Of a DNA stretch of 64,000 bases, positions 3,733 to 8,953 are shown one piece after another. The position numbers and the translations under genes are program-made. Positions within the stretch are counted from its first letter, which is position 1; every line of letters starts with the position of its first letter. Source of the DNA: Geomonas azotofigens (lineage in GTDB: Bacteria; Desulfobacterota; Desulfuromonadia; Geobacterales; Geobacteraceae); NCBI RefSeq assembly GCF_018919395.1, contig NZ_JAHLME010000002.1, forward strand, positions 558,001-622,000. Direction: 5' to 3'. The notes under the pieces were generated by a model that had not been told where the DNA came from, searched no databases, and was given only the letters and a program-made list of their open reading frames with translations.

Positions 3733-4146
3733 ATGGAACAGCGGCGTTATCACCGGGTCAAATACAGTGCCCCCGGCGAATTGGTTCATCATGAGATTAA
3801 ATATCGTTGCCGTCTGGAAAACGTCAGCCTGCGCGGCGCCCTGATCAGCGCCGATGAGTGCCTGATGGTGCCTCTCAACGAGTCCTGCAGGCTCACCCTT
3901 CCCCTTGAACCTGGAAAAGAACCGCTCATCATCACGGTCAGCGTGGTGCACTGCTTCTTCTCGATGGTCGGGGTGAAGTTCATCGCCTTCGCCGGCGACT
4001 CCGAATTGAGGCTGCTCGAATTACTGAAGCGGGAGACTTCGGAGCCGGACAAACTCATGCAGGAGTGGGAAAGCCTGAAGAAGGAAAGTTCGGTTACCGA
4101 GGAGGAGACGGCGAGCATCCCCGAAGCGGCAGTGGCGATCTTCTGA
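3733..4146 (+). CDS. PilZ domain protein
   Basis: A single-domain PilZ protein of 137 residues. The start at 3733 has a GAGGAGG ribosome site 7 bases upstream; an upstream in-frame start at 3679 lacks one. The c-di-GMP-binding signature is complete: an N-terminal RRYHR (RxxxR) and NVSLRG (D/NxSxxG) about 30 residues later. The C-terminal 40 residues are acidic and helical. Such proteins are cytoplasmic effectors that change partner when c-di-GMP binds. The partner is unknown and nothing beside it suggests one. Confidence 0.85.
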   Translation: MEQRRYHRVKYSAPGELVHHEIKYRCRLENVSLRGALISADECLMVPLNESCRLTLPLEPGKEPLIITVSVVHCFFSMVGVKFIAFAGDSELRLLELLKRETSEPDKLMQEWESLKKESSVTEEETASIPEAAVAIF

Positions 4147-4168: not shown

Positions 4169-4540
4169 TCAATGCTTGGTGGGGCGAATCTCCGAATCCT
4201 TGGGTATGCGCCGTTCGTAGGGGAGGCAGCTGTTGATATTGAGCACCTCTTCAGCCAGCGCGAGGCTCTTGTACCTCAGCGAGACCTGTTCCAGCTTATC
4301 CTTTAAACGCAACAGGACATCGATGCTCTCGGTCTTGGCGTATTCGTTGTATAGTTGCATTACTTCCTTGAAAACCGCATCCAGCGATTCATCCAGCGAC
4401 AGCTCGCGTCCGGCTTCCGGCACCGCCACGTCGGGACTCACCTTGGTCCAGTTCTGGCGCACCTCGTCTTTGAACCGGCCCAGCGCGATTCTGTCGATCT
4501 TGTACTTGGCGTTGCCGATCTCAAGGATGCTTCTCACCAT
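4169..4540 (-). CDS. Conserved-looking hypothetical protein
   Basis: A 123-residue soluble, mostly helical protein, convergent with the PilZ gene. I do not recognise the family. It has no signal peptide, membrane segment or Cys motif. The middle (about residues 45-95) has heptad-like Leu/Val spacing suggestive of a coiled coil, and the tail YERRIPKDSEIRPTKH is basic. Codon use matches the neighbours, which supports a real gene. Its divergent neighbour is the riboswitch-led operon, with two palindromes between them. Confidence 0.6.
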   Translation of the reverse strand: MVRSILEIGNAKYKIDRIALGRFKDEVRQNWTKVSPDVAVPEAGRELSLDESLDAVFKEVMQLYNEYAKTESIDVLLRLKDKLEQVSLRYKSLALAEEVLNINSCLPYERRIPKDSEIRPTKH

Positions 4541-4698: not shown

Positions 4699-4727
4699 TT
4701 GACAGGGTTCAAGCCTTGAGCTATCGT
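4699..4727 (+). promoter_or_regulatory. Predicted promoter ahead of riboswitch 1
   Basis: TTGACA at 4699-4704, a 17-base spacer, and TATCGT at 4722-4727. The start point would fall near 4734, about 28 bases before the first riboswitch stem. This is the expected layout for a transcription-terminating riboswitch. Confidence 0.7.
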
Positions 4728-4761
4728 TCCACCAAATTTCCCGACACCACATACGATAGAC

Positions 4762-4866
4762 GATAATACTAAACCATCCGCGAGGATGGGACGGAAAGCC
4801 TACAGGGTCTCACCGAGACAGCCGGGTCGCCGAAATATCAAACAGATATTCGGTCCCGGCTTTTTT
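4762..4866 (+). promoter_or_regulatory. GEMM-I fold riboswitch 1, probable cyclic AMP-GMP (cAG-I) type, with terminator
   Basis: The aptamer spans about 4762-4839. It has a CCATCC-GCGA-GGATGG hairpin with a GNRA loop, the conserved GACGGAAAGCCTACAGGG core, and a second hairpin GTCTC-ACC-GAGAC followed by AGCCGGG. The base I align with ligand-contact position 20 of the Vibrio Vc2 aptamer is A, the feature of the Geobacter cAMP-GMP (3',3'-cGAMP) subclass. The 3' side of the aptamer can instead pair with 4845-4860 to form a GC-rich terminator ending in six T. GATA/TATC pairing in the bound form would block that hairpin, so this should be an ON switch. It controls the genes starting at 4950. Confidence 0.88.
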
Positions 4867-4949
4867 ATTGCCCAAAATCCAGCCCCCATTCCGTCCCGAC
4901 TCCCGCTATGACTGGACAGGAAAAGGCTGATACACCAGGAGGAACTGAC

Positions 4950-5222
4950 ATGAACATAAGAGCGTTACTGAGCACCTTTGCGGCAGGAGCAGTTTTCTGC
5001 ATGCTCGGCGTCACAACCGCGCAGGCCGGTTCCGTCGGCGTTAACATCAACCTGAACGGCTATATCCCCGCTCCCCCCGGAGTACATATCTATTACGATT
5101 CCGGCCGCCCCTACTACGTAGAAAACCGCCAGAGGGTTTACCTGAAGGAAAAGGATCACCACGAGAAGGAGCACCACGACCACGGCAAGAAGAAAGGGCA
5201 CAAGAAGCATCACAAGGACTAA
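4950..5222 (+). CDS. Small secreted protein with His/Lys-rich tail
   Basis: A 90-residue protein. The ATG at 4950 follows an AGGAGGA site 6 bases upstream; an earlier in-frame start would put charged residues before the signal peptide. Residues 1-26 form a clear Sec signal peptide (core LLSTFAAGAVFCMLGV, ending AQA). The mature part has a short region with PAPPGVHIYYDSGRPYYVEN, then a tail of about 25 residues made almost only of His, Lys, Asp, Glu and Gly. The tail suggests metal binding or electrostatic contact with envelope polymers; this is inference. It is the first gene under riboswitch 1. Confidence 0.75.
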   Translation: MNIRALLSTFAAGAVFCMLGVTTAQAGSVGVNINLNGYIPAPPGVHIYYDSGRPYYVENRQRVYLKEKDHHEKEHHDHGKKKGHKKHHKD

Positions 5223-5253
5223 ATCTTTTCTCAGGTGAAAGGAGGTTAGCACT

Positions 5254-6186
5254 ATGCGAAACACGACTGTTGCCTTTAGATCCGTCATCATCGCCATCGG
5301 CGCCATCATCGCCACAATGGTTTACCTCGGAGGCTGCGGCGGCGGTGGCGGCGGCGCCAGCACCGGAACCCTCAAGCTCGCCATCACCGACAAGCCAAGT
5401 GACGCCTACCAGAACCTGGTCATCTCCATCAAGGAGATCAGGGTCGTACCCGCCGGCCACGAAAATGCCCCAGACAACGACCCGGCCCTCCCCGTCCTGG
5501 CCAAGTTCAACCCGCAGGAAAAGGTCATCGATATCATGACCCTGCAATTCGTCCAGCAGGCGTTGGGCGAGATCGTGCTGCCGGCAGGAACCTACCGGCA
5601 GATCCGCCTGGTCCTGTACCCGAATCCGAACGGAAACCAGGCTCCGGTCAACTACCTCACCCTGAAGACCGACCCGAATACCAAGATCCCTCTGACCACC
5701 CCGAGCGGTCAGACCTCGGGCCTCAAGATCCTCGGCCCCCTCGAGGTCAAGCCGGGGGTGATCAACGCGGTCATGATCGACTTCGACCCGAACACCGCAG
5801 TGGTGAAGCGCGGCAACAGCAACGAGTACAACCTAAAGCCGACCGGCATCAGGATGATCCAGATGGCCAACATGCTGGACCAGTTCGGCTCCATCATCGG
5901 CAACGTCAGCAACACCCTGCAGAATTGGAGCAGCGCGACCGTCTCCATCAAGCGTCGCGGCACCATCAACGATGTCACGCCGATCGCCTCCGGCCAGATC
6001 TTTGCTGCCTATACCAGCGGCAAATGGCAGGCACCGTTCTCAGCGTTCGTACCGGCGAGTGACCCGGGCTGGAACTACAAGACCTTCATAAGCGCCAACG
6101 GGTTTGCCGTCTATTCCTCGGCTGCATTGCCGGTGGCCCAGGGTGAGGCGAAGAACCTTGGGGAAATCGTCCTCACCCCGCAATAA
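5254..6186 (+). CDS. DUF4382 domain lipoprotein
   Basis: A 310-residue predicted lipoprotein. Its signal peptide ends in a YLGGC lipobox (Cys28), followed by a run of Gly as a flexible tether. Residues about 36-200 match the DUF4382 pattern: TLKLAITDKPSD, then VISIKEIRV, and LPAGTYRQIRLVL. The rest is beta-rich and ends with a carboxypeptidase-regulatory-like section. An AAGGAGGT site lies 8 bases before the ATG. Function is unknown. DUF4382 proteins are common surface or periplasmic lipoproteins in Geobacter, and here one lies under a cyclic-dinucleotide riboswitch. It is 31 bases after the His-rich gene. Confidence 0.85.
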   Translation: MRNTTVAFRSVIIAIGAIIATMVYLGGCGGGGGGASTGTLKLAITDKPSDAYQNLVISIKEIRVVPAGHENAPDNDPALPVLAKFNPQEKVIDIMTLQFVQQALGEIVLPAGTYRQIRLVLYPNPNGNQAPVNYLTLKTDPNTKIPLTTPSGQTSGLKILGPLEVKPGVINAVMIDFDPNTAVVKRGNSNEYNLKPTGIRMIQMANMLDQFGSIIGNVSNTLQNWSSATVSIKRRGTINDVTPIASGQIFAAYTSGKWQAPFSAFVPASDPGWNYKTFISANGFAVYSSAALPVAQGEAKNLGEIVLTPQ

Positions 6187-6198
6187 CGGAAATGAAAT

Positions 6199-6229
6199 GG
6201 ACCCGGTCCTTCTGCAAAGGGCCGGGTCC
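6199..6229 (+). other. Intercistronic hairpin
   Basis: GGACCCGG (6199-6206) pairs perfectly with CCGGGTCC (6222-6229) around a 15-base loop, between the lipoprotein and hemerythrin genes. No T-run follows; the next bases are TATCAATG, then the hemerythrin ribosome site. I read it as a possible processing or stability element, or a partial terminator, within one operon. Confidence 0.5.
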
Positions 6230-6256
6230 TATCAATGAAGAGGAGATGTAACTAGT

Positions 6257-6658
6257 ATGCCTATAATTGAATGGAAGGACTGTTATGTGGTCGGCATACA
6301 AGAGATCGATCAACACCACCAGAGCCTGGTGCAGTATCTCAACAAAACCTATGACCATTTCCGGGAGGGGCACCAGTTGGACCCTTCCGTGCTGGAGATC
6401 CTCATCGACTATTCCATGCAGCACTTCGGCTGCGAAGAGCGTTGGATGGAGAACTCCTCCTACCCGAAGCTTGGGCCGCACAAAGAGGAGCACCGACAAT
6501 TCAGGACCAAGATTGCGCAACTGAAGAAAAGACAGGCGCTTGACACGAAGGCCTCCGTCGAACTCCTCTGGTTTCTCTGTAACTGGGTCACCCACCACAT
6601 ACGCGAAACCGATGCCGACTTCGGCAGGTACCTGAACACCCAGTCCCGACACGGCTGA
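6257..6658 (+). CDS. Bacteriohemerythrin
   Basis: A 133-residue single-domain hemerythrin. The diiron ligand pattern is complete: IDQHHQSL (His near 21), QHFGCEERWM (His56, Glu60), HKEEHRQF (His75, His79) and the WVTHHIRETD motif (His114, Asp119). Proteins of this family bind O2 in the cytoplasm for delivery, sensing or protection, relevant for an anaerobe that meets oxygen. A GAAGAGGAG site precedes the start. It follows the DUF4382 gene by 70 bases and ends just before the second riboswitch. Confidence 0.93.
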   Translation: MPIIEWKDCYVVGIQEIDQHHQSLVQYLNKTYDHFREGHQLDPSVLEILIDYSMQHFGCEERWMENSSYPKLGPHKEEHRQFRTKIAQLKKRQALDTKASVELLWFLCNWVTHHIRETDADFGRYLNTQSRHG

Positions 6659-6672
6659 CAAAGACCTAGCGA

Positions 6673-6776
6673 CAATACTCAACCATCCGCGAGGATGGGG
6701 CGGAAAGCCTACAGGGTCTCACCGAGACTGCCGGGTTGCCGAACTATCACCAGATATTCGGCCCCGGCTTTTTTGT
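6673..6776 (+). promoter_or_regulatory. GEMM-I fold riboswitch 2, probable cyclic AMP-GMP type, with terminator
   Basis: Nearly identical to riboswitch 1: the CCATCC-GCGA-GGATGG hairpin, the GGCGGAAAGCCTACAGGG core, GTCTC-ACC-GAGAC and GCCGGG, with A at the same aligned ligand-contact position. The 3' side can form a terminator with the segment up to 6767, followed by TTTTTTG. It starts only 15 bases after the hemerythrin stop and I see no promoter in that gap. It therefore probably acts on readthrough from the upstream operon, or on a start inside the hemerythrin gene. The paired stem that would hold the bound form looks weaker than in copy 1 (GACA opposite TATC). It controls the gene at 6980. 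Confidence 0.87.
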
Positions 6777-6979
6777 TTCTTCAGCAGATACTGGGGAATA
6801 AAATATACCTCAAGGAAGCACTGCACAAGCTTTCGCTTTTAACAGTTGTGCAGCCCAAAATATTCACCATGCAGCTGTGAAGGAGCCCCCACGTCCTCCC
6901 CCTTTGTGAAGGGGAGACAGAGGGGATTTGCCTTTGATTAAACCTTAACCTGTATCACTGGAAAGGAGGACAACACCAA

Positions 6980-7645
6980 ATGAAAACGATGAAACTTCTG
7001 GCAGCAGCCGTAGCCGCTGTCCTACTGGCAACTTCGGTCCCCCCGGCCTACGCCGGCAAGGAGTCGAGAAAGATCGAGGACTGCGTCGAAGTCGTCAAGG
7101 CGATCAAGGCCATACCCGAGGAGGGGATCCCCCCGATGCTGCTGAAGAACGCCGAAGGGATCATGATCATCCCCGAAGTCATCAAGGTCGGCTTCGTGGT
7201 CGGCGGCAGGTACGGCACCGGCGTCCTCACCGTGCGCGGCGAAAAGGGTAACTGGGGCGATCCAGTCTTCGTGAAGATAGCTGGCGGCAGTCTGGGATGG
7301 CAGATCGGCGCCCAGTCGACCGATCTGGTCCTGGTGTTCAAAACCAGGAAGAGCGTGGACGGCGTCCTCAGGGGCAAGTTCACGCTTGGCGCAGACGCGT
7401 CCGTAGCCGCCGGCCCGGTGGGGAGAAGCGCCGAGGGTGCCACCGACGTGACCCTAAAAAGCGAGATCCTTTCCTATTCGCGCAGTCGCGGTCTCTTTGC
7501 CGGGATCGCCCTCGACGGTGCGGCCCTGATGATCGACGACGATGCCAACGGCGCCTACTACGGCAACCTCGATCCGAGGGCCATCGCCGCCGGCGAGGCC
7601 GCCAAACGCACACCCGAAGTAAAGCAGTTGCTTGATCAGCTGTAA
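6980..7645 (+). CDS. SYLF/YSC84-type lipid-binding protein
   Basis: A 221-residue secreted protein with an N-terminal signal peptide ending AYA (about residue 25) and one SYLF (Ysc84 actin-binding/lipid-binding) domain. Typical landmarks are GRYGTGVLTVRG, GGSLGWQIGAQSTDLVLVF, FTLGADASVAAGPVG and GLFAGIALDGAALMIDDDANGAYYG. Bacterial SYLF proteins are thought to be periplasmic or outer-membrane associated and to bind lipids. AAAGGAGG precedes the ATG. About 200 bases of leader follow riboswitch 2, with no obvious second control element. Confidence 0.9.
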   Translation: MKTMKLLAAAVAAVLLATSVPPAYAGKESRKIEDCVEVVKAIKAIPEEGIPPMLLKNAEGIMIIPEVIKVGFVVGGRYGTGVLTVRGEKGNWGDPVFVKIAGGSLGWQIGAQSTDLVLVFKTRKSVDGVLRGKFTLGADASVAAGPVGRSAEGATDVTLKSEILSYSRSRGLFAGIALDGAALMIDDDANGAYYGNLDPRAIAAGEAAKRTPEVKQLLDQL

Positions 7646-7691: not shown

Positions 7692-7829
7692 TACTTGTCT
7701 CCAACGCTCCTCGATCAGCCCCTCCCTTTTTTGAGAGCAAACCTCAGCCCGTTCACCACAGCCAATCTCCGTCAAAATCCTTTACACGCCCCAGCCAATT
7801 CAAACAATGCTTCAGCTGTACGGTTGATG

Positions 7830-8575
7830 CGTTGCGTTGAGCAAAGGAAGCTTTCTGCGAGCAGCAGAAGAATTGCGTTGAGCAGAGAAAGCTTCCGACG
7901 AGCAACGGAAGCGTTGCGTTGAGCAGAGAAAGCTTCCGGCGAGCAATGGAAGCGTTCCGTTGAGCAGAGAAAGCTTCCGGCGAGCGACGAAAGCGTTCCG
8001 TTGCGCAGAGAAAGCTTCCGGCAAGCAACGGAAGCGTTCCGTTGCGCAGAGAAAGCTTCCGGCGAGCGACGGAAGCGTTGCGTTGCGCAGAGAAAGCTTC
8101 CGGCGAGCGACGAAAGCGTTGCGTTGCGCAGAGAAAGCTTCCGGCGAGCAACGGAACGTTGCGTTGCGCAGAGAAAGCTTCCGGCGAGCGACGAAAGCGT
8201 TCCGTTGCGCAGAGAAAGCTTCCGACGAGCGACGGAAGCGTTGCGTTGCACAGAGAAAGCTTCCGACGAGCGACGGAACGTTGCGTTGCGCAGAGAAAGC
8301 TTCCGGCAAGCGACGAAAGCGTTCCGTTGAGCAGAGAACGCTTCCGGCGAGCGACGGAACGTTGCGTTGCGCAGAGAAAGCTTCCGGCGAGCGACGGAAC
8401 GTTGCGTTGCGCAGAGAAAGCTTCCGGCAAGCGACGAAAGCGTTCCGTTGAGCAGAGAACGCTTCCGGCGAGCGACGGAACGTTGCGTTGGGCAGAGAAA
8501 GCTTCCGGCGAGCGACGGATGTGTTGTATTGAGCTGAGAAAGCTTTCTCCGGGGGGACGAAAGCGTTGCCTACGC
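7830..8575. repeat. Tandem array of about 18 units of 41 bp
   Basis: A uniform unit built on GCAGAGAAAGCTTCCGGCGA plus GCGACGGAAGCGTTGCGTT recurs head to tail with no spacers. Successive GCAGAG starts (for example 7923 and 7964) are 41 bases apart. Some units lack one G (GGAACGTT for GGAAGCGTT) and are 40 bases. End units are degenerate and central ones nearly identical, typical of expansion by unequal exchange. Each full unit carries AAGCTT, and GGAAGC can pair with GCTTCC. The minus strand stays open in three frames, but one-base unit changes shift frame and no ribosome site is evident, so I do not call a gene. 7692-7829 and 8576-8830 hold nothing else recognisable. Confidence 0.9.
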
Positions 8576-8878: not shown

Positions 8879-8953
8879 TGGCTGGGGCGCCAGGGATCGA
8901 ACCTGGGAATGACGGGATCAAAACCCGTTGCCTTACCGCTTGGCGACGCCCCA
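8879..8953 (-). tRNA. tRNA-Gln (anticodon TTG)
   Basis: A 75-base tRNA with encoded CCA. The acceptor stem TGGGGCG/CGCCCCA is perfect, discriminator G. The anticodon loop reads TTTTGAT with anticodon TTG, and the T arm has GGTTCGATCC. It follows ispE by 16 bases on the same strand and has its own terminator. Its 3' end faces the accessory segment at 3.6-8.8 kb. I found no copy of the tRNA 3' end at the far side of that segment, so integration at this tRNA is not shown. Confidence 0.97.

Follow-up and report, generated by a model that had tools for sequence, protein, structure and literature searches.

The closest described relatives of the elements considered here are the cyclic AMP-GMP (cGAMP)-type GEMM-Ib riboswitches of Geobacter, such as those of GSU1761 (pgcA), Gmet_0970 and the G. 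metallireducens pilM gene. They share with them the RF01051 fold, an adenine at ligand position 20 (A20), a host from the Geobacteraceae and a terminating ON platform, predicted for the present elements, whose terminator recruits a portion of the aptamer's 3′ strand. The elements in question, riboswitch 1 (RS1) and riboswitch 2 (RS2), belong to a putative operon of the soil bacterium Geomonas azotofigens found in a stretch of 64,000 nucleotides (contig NZ_JAHLME010000002.1, positions 558,001 to 622,000), which is hereafter called the window. Unlike the Geobacter switches, RS2 follows three genes, lies 8 nt past a stop codon and lacks a clear promoter of its own, and the genes placed behind the switches code for hemerythrin, DUF4382 and SYLF proteins, whereas those of the Geobacter examples are cytochrome or pilus genes.

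Two complete switches of the same class in series are also known from contiguous cyclic di-GMP class I (c-di-GMP-I)/cGAMP tandems (PMC9481103), such as the OmcAHG tandem (PMC6456294), for which a pseudo-cooperative and more digital output is expected. In one survey, c-di-GMP-I was the class with most tandem same-class switches (PMC9481103), G. sulfurreducens likewise has genes headed by tandem switches (PMC6456294), and contiguous riboswitches are defined and drawn as lying within one intergenic region (PMC12452182). In contrast, three genes are found between RS1 and RS2, with one gate ahead of the upstream genes and two ahead of the last gene. A first-pass annotation of this DNA had described tandem riboswitches; both switches exist, but the word is loose, since 1.8 kb and three genes separate them. 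Searches of an open-licence library returned no description of such an arrangement and none of SYLF or hemerythrin genes as targets of cGAMP riboswitches, which is weak evidence of novelty, and the extract of the G. bemidjiensis genome paper mentions hemerythrins and GEMM switches separately (PMC2996986).

The locus presents two GEMM-I aptamers with their terminator stems, correlated columns that distinguish them, a gene order and a conservation shared with relatives, and no visible σ70 promoter before RS2. These features are best read as serial gating within one transcript, brought about by the fusion of two riboswitch units, a reading to which a probability of about 0.6 is assigned and in which the ligand, the continuous transcript, the direction of the fusion and the dose response are all deduced from sequence. 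The features of the locus, in window coordinates, are as follows.

4699..4727, + strand: promoter P1, TTGACA-17-TATCGT (promoter scan and conservation across homologous loci).
4758..4834, + strand: RS1, GEMM-I aptamer with A20 (RF01051, 43.8 bits).
4821..4866, + strand: predicted RS1 terminator, T6 run at 4861-4866, 5′ arm overlapping the 3′ strand of aptamer P3.
4950..5222, + strand: His-rich secreted small protein (start read from the sequence; by eye, a signal peptide and a tail rich in His and Lys).
5254..6186, + strand: DUF4382 protein, probable lipoprotein by eye (PF14321, E 7.9e-33).
6199..6229, + strand: hairpin without U-run in the DUF4382-hemerythrin gap (-26.8 kcal/mol, z -4.82).
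6257..6658, + strand: bacteriohemerythrin (PF01814; NF033749 over its cut-off).
6667..6743, + strand: RS2, GEMM-I aptamer with A20 (RF01051, 39.8 bits; C-G-T columns), beginning 8 nt past the hemerythrin stop codon (gene end 6658).
6730..6774, + strand: predicted RS2 terminator, T6 run at 6769-6774.
6980..7645, + strand: SYLF-domain (Ysc84, PF04366) secreted protein, the proposed doubly gated gene (PF04366; tree).

The His-rich peptide matched no Pfam or NCBIfam family in searches whose queries began at codon 2, and it was present in 10/10 relatives with the order peptide-DUF4382-hemerythrin-SYLF.

In the proposed mechanism, a single σ70-type promoter at 4699-4727 would start a transcript that meets RS1, a cGAMP-type GEMM-Ib ON switch. 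Ligand bound to RS1 would block the terminator, and the polymerase would proceed through the peptide, DUF4382 and hemerythrin genes until it encounters RS2, eight bases beyond the hemerythrin stop codon, and a second ligand-dependent terminator placed before SYLF; at low ligand, RS2 would also end the message of the first three genes at its 3′ side. The output of hemerythrin would depend on p1 and that of SYLF on the product p1 x p2. It also appears somewhat probable that the position in the operon has a logic of its own, one messenger being read repeatedly along the transcript and gene order setting the number of gates (one for hemerythrin, two for SYLF). Such logic would have come from a fusion of two units in which only the second promoter was lost, and the relatives would preserve the series of free-standing, gated-fused and bare-terminator-fused forms.

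The covariance-model scan with RF01051, whose curated gathering cut-off is 35 bits, revealed RS1 (E 2.9e-5) and RS2 (E 2.7e-4) as the two matches of the window above this score, both on the + strand; the starts given previously, 4762 and 6673, lie a few bases inside them. RS1 and RS2 belong to the 17 GEMM-I matches of the genome. Position 20, mapped from Vc2 in this analysis (model position 11, alignment column 19), was A in both, as an earlier hand alignment had it, as well as in 15/17 aptamers of the genome and in 32/32 aligned homologues, and the two switches carrying G (L001 and L002) were those that Rfam names c-di-GMP-I-GGC. In a Geobacter GEMM-Ib switch, the A20G change converts cGAMP selectivity to c-di-GMP selectivity, as stated in the extract of PMC6456294. 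Moreover, in a reading that covered 30 of the 32 GGDEF matches in the genome, two of the 30 being halves of one domain, one GGDEF domain (L109) presented Ser at the Hypr position (GHLIGS / GGDEY), Hypr-like by this sequence sign only, and a further candidate (L113) had Thr there. RS1 and RS2 should be cGAMP-type (GEMM-Ib) aptamers, in keeping with the signature proposed in the first-pass annotation. Elsewhere in the genome, the gene of a GGDEF protein carrying the L103 domain lies behind a GEMM-I switch with A20 (L006, G000:C11:1071090-1074165), and cGAMP may feed back there on cyclic dinucleotide enzymes.

At both switches, the CCGGG motif of the 3′ strand of aptamer P3 (columns 65-69 of alignment A2, Rfam structure) is also contained in the 5′ arm of the predicted terminator stem, which is followed by T6, and in the predicted structures the terminator and the ligand-bound aptamer exclude each other. 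Folds of 125 and 126 nt for the RS1 and RS2 regions gave z-scores of -4.14 and -3.76 relative to shuffles. Among the 32 aligned homologues, compensatory changes were observed at three pairs of P2 and the outer terminator stem was nearly invariant. Automatic delimitation of the terminators covered all of the 32 riboswitch sequences but G012_1, G003_1 and G004_1. The extract of PMC9262584 reports that in the pilM cGAMP ON switch the terminator captures the ligand-pairing C. Because terminator and aptamer share a strand, on the plan of this published switch, RS1 and RS2 should both be transcriptional ON switches, as had been supposed from the competing terminator after each aptamer.

The origin of RS2 can be traced by means of SYLF neighbourhoods, which were compared in 20 relatives (L068-L087). 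The order RS1-peptide-DUF4382-hemerythrin-RS2-SYLF was found in seven of them (L068-L074), which together with the window make 8/19 genomes of the genus, here called two-switch genomes. The same genes with no second aptamer over the cut-off were found in L075-L077 (G006, G007 and G009), six relatives (L078-L083) carried SYLF at another locus with a riboswitch ahead of the gene and TTGACA upstream, and in the four remaining ones (L084-L087) SYLF was more distantly related and no riboswitch reached the cut-off. The RS1-peptide-DUF4382-hemerythrin operon also occurred without SYLF in G003, G004, G012 and G015, and DUF4382 was present in 8/10 genomes searched, with a riboswitch at 7/8, G016 being the exception. 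In the SYLF tree (29 rows), the 11 fused-order genes were placed in a 17-row clade with support 98/95, whose other six members all have a riboswitch; the branch joining the two fused groups was weakly supported (81/64). RS2 is the probable orthologue of the stand-alone SYLF riboswitch, not a copy of RS1, and the simplest history would be a transfer of the RS2-SYLF unit to the position after hemerythrin, in which the promoter was lost and the switch retained. The first-pass annotation had missed that RS2 goes with SYLF, and also that three relatives lost the aptamer and retained a terminator stem.

As for promoters, TTGACA-17-TATCGT at 4699-4727 was the only promoter-like site listed between 4140 and 7800, and, because shuffles alone gave 1.5 sites on average, its weight comes from conservation. 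In fact, TTGACA-17-TATNNT was verified in 15/15 homologous loci, always at 13.3 bits, with TATCGT as the -10 element in 12 of them and TATGGT or TATGTT in the other three, confirming the promoter previously ascribed to RS1. The 100 nt before RS2 reached best scores of only -2.7 to 0.2 bits in 7/8 two-switch genomes, like shuffles (p ≥0.63), and TTGACA was found upstream of 6/6 stand-alone SYLF switches, where three whole sites beat shuffles. These observations agree with the earlier claim that RS2 has no visible promoter. Promoter scoring of the two-switch genomes revealed no conserved σ70 site between RS1 and SYLF, with a score that misses some head-of-unit switches, and the body of the window's operon held no site of at least 7.5 bits, shuffles giving 1.0 on average. 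A promoter in the RS2-SYLF spacer was rejected, since a site of at least 7.5 bits was present in just 1/8 two-switch genomes (L073, 7.8 bits). Among the aptamer-less genomes, L076 (G006) has an 8.8-bit site 29 nt before SYLF, and neither this site nor that of L073 was common to their closest relatives. The conserved block of the spacer is a palindromic repeat (window 6898-6931), with eight genome copies at ≤3 mismatches.

That RS2 arose as a duplicate of RS1 within the operon is very improbable, even though the aptamer cores of the two have a mean identity of 93.9% when compared inside the same genome. Three correlated columns read A-A-C in 15/15 RS1 but C-G-T in 14/14 of the others, that is, 8/8 RS2 and 6/6 stand-alone SYLF switches, and duplication was rejected as the source of RS2 on these columns; furthermore, RS2 copies are 97.8% identical across genomes, and six relatives carry such a switch at SYLF at another locus. 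There was likewise no sign of gene conversion, the identity across genomes (99.1% for RS1 and that just given for RS2) standing against the lower value within genomes. Because C-G-T also occurs outside SYLF switches, in 3/3 switches before DUF4382 in G008, G014 and G033, the columns alone do not prove orthology, which is carried by gene order and the SYLF tree; in the genome of the window, the switch L013 has C, G and T at these columns as well. It is less improbable, though still doubtful, that RS2 was retained chiefly as the 3′ terminator of the operon, its aptamer no longer regulating in practice. Such a role would fit G006, G007 and G009, where the aptamer core was lost and the GCCGGG...CCCGGC stem and T-run were kept at the same place (-17.7 kcal/mol in L075 and L077, the two measured), and the apparent weakness or absence of stem P1, judged by eye, in RS2 of several genomes. 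The model R1 gave 20.4, 17.5 and 17.4 bits (E 3e-4 to 3e-3) in these three genomes, and, because an unrelated place scores 15.9 with it, their homology to RS2 rests on position and pairwise alignment. In the latter, 0/300 shuffles reached the score of L075 and L076 against each of four references, and for L077 the count was 0/300 for three references and 1/300 for one; RS1 was about as good a reference as RS2, and in 2/3 loci a hairpin of different sequence aligned to P2. In these genomes, SYLF transcription would have to pass a single gate and then a fixed terminator, except if the 8.8-bit site of G006 acts as a promoter. In the eight two-switch genomes, by contrast, A20 and the C-G-T columns were kept in 8/8, and the RS2 core had a mean identity of 97.8%, versus 51.2% for the RS2-SYLF spacer, 75.6% for hemerythrin third positions and 66.0% for SYLF third positions. 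Because its core identity is far above that of the third positions and the spacer, the RS2 aptamer looks constrained after the fusion.

Several observations weigh against serial gating, and part of them would favour two transcription units, in which a promoter in the hemerythrin gene or another sigma factor feeds RS2-SYLF and the operon is a mere neighbourhood; this is unlikely, although it deserves to be taken more seriously than the preceding alternatives. A TATAAT is present at 6262-6267, in hemerythrin codons 2-4, and was found in 8/8 two-switch genomes, the site reaching 9.2-14.0 bits in 4/8 of them, and an internal promoter bypassing RS1 is possible. In the window, however, its poor -35 leaves it at 5.2 bits, below the 7.5 bits that no site in the operon body attained, and the TATAAT, with a varying -35, also occurred in 4/4 relatives without SYLF behind the gene, being therefore not tied to RS2. 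Moreover, the promoter score misses some head-of-unit switches: of nine examined (five from the 1.35 kb and four from the 3.2 kb group of pairs described below), eight scored -1.4 to 7.3 bits and one 8.2. Because several unit-heading switches score low, the low score before RS2 is weak evidence and no proof of a missing promoter, and promoters of another kind or placed further upstream may escape it. In addition, G018 reached 4.2 bits (p 0.05) in the 100 nt before RS2, and three of the six stand-alone SYLF sites were no better than shuffles (p 0.11-0.235). Folding energies of the DUF4382-hemerythrin gap range from -26.8 to -38.5 kcal/mol across 11/11 genomes of the same gene order, and its hairpin could cut or uncouple the message; as an intrinsic terminator it was rejected, having a strong stem without a U-run. 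With respect to the switches themselves, A20 is no guarantee of exclusivity, as one Geobacter switch is reported in the extract of PMC6456294 to sense both cGAMP and c-di-GMP. RS2 of the window may also switch poorly, because its P1 seems weak by eye and a segment of the RS2-SYLF spacer is able to pair with P3 in the predicted fold. As a separate observation, the hairpin at 6199-6229 is perhaps an RNA-processing or stabilising element.

The consequences of serial gating for the last gene were explored with a gate model, p = p0 + (pmax - p0) L/(K + L), in which the two switches are independent and alike, hemerythrin follows p and SYLF follows p squared. In this model the fold range squares by simple arithmetic, from 16 to 256, from 9 to 81 or from 3 to 9, whereas the effective Hill coefficient rises only to 1.05-1.19, with a midpoint displaced to 1.62-2.41 K. 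The double gate would mainly lower the floor and delay the response, and would hardly make it steep. The expectation that the last gene responds more sharply than the first would hold for the fold range, but the gain in steepness would be slight, the modelled coefficient staying at or below 1.19.

Riboswitches are usually seen as devices of the operon head, and here the same device is seemingly repeated within an operon, with an origin readable from the relatives. These relatives supply a natural test set for serial gating, since the same gene is preceded by a stand-alone switch, by two gates, or by one gate and a fixed terminator. The outputs predicted for cGAMP signalling in metal-respiring Geobacteraceae would also come to include an oxygen-binding hemerythrin and a SYLF protein. 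A second locus of the genus again has hemerythrin preceded by an A20 switch (3/3 genomes looked at), which suggests a tie between cGAMP and oxygen handling.

Gene-separated GEMM-I pairs recur in the genus, as revealed by a census of 15/19 genomes (all but G004, G015, G016 and G017) that counted 264 matches, including one below the cut-off. Same-strand neighbours were <0.6 kb apart in 28 cases and 0.6-6 kb apart in 32, the latter being distributed by spacing as seven at 0.7 kb, 11 at 1.35 kb, eight at 1.85 kb (RS1/RS2), two at 2.7 kb and four at 3.2 kb. The second switch of the 1.35 kb group had a promoter-like site of 8.0-10.8 bits in 5/5 tested (shuffle p 0.015-0.145). Downstream switches of the 3.2 kb group scored 2.0, 2.7, 4.4 and 8.1 bits and second switches of the 0.7 kb group 5.3, 7.7 and 5.3 bits, and both groups may represent further serial pairs or further misses of the score. 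Among the pairs spaced by 0.7 kb, A20 in the first switch was combined with G20 in the later ones in 3/3 tested, and the intervening gene was a second bacteriohemerythrin in 3/3. At L145 (G010:C1:3973500-3977500), L146 (G001) and L147 (G007), an A20 switch with a promoter-like site of 9.9-13.3 bits is followed by this second bacteriohemerythrin gene and then by one or two G20 (c-di-GMP-type) switches with weak promoter scores of 4.7-7.7 bits, so that two signals could be read in series along one transcript; a like spacing was found in 7/15 genomes. Related genes lying near each other with GEMM switches are also known from the fibronectin-III gene triplicates of G. bemidjiensis (extract of PMC2996986), and a like pair is present in this genome at G000:C12:328981/330404 (L020 13982, 15405). 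Its two neighbouring genes code for secreted proteins that look similar and Ig/FN3-like by eye; both have an A20 switch of their own, and TTGCTT-17-TACTAT accompanies the second switch. The genes of the Geomonas pairs look like duplicates.

Upstream of the operon and on the same strand, a PilZ-domain gene is found at window 3733-4143, with a small minus-strand gene (4172-4540) in between, and this PilZ-side neighbourhood was kept in 10/10 fused-order relatives and in four relatives with the operon alone. On the other side, a 41-base unit is repeated in tandem 17.6 times over window 7829-8545, between SYLF and a tRNA gene at 8882-8953.

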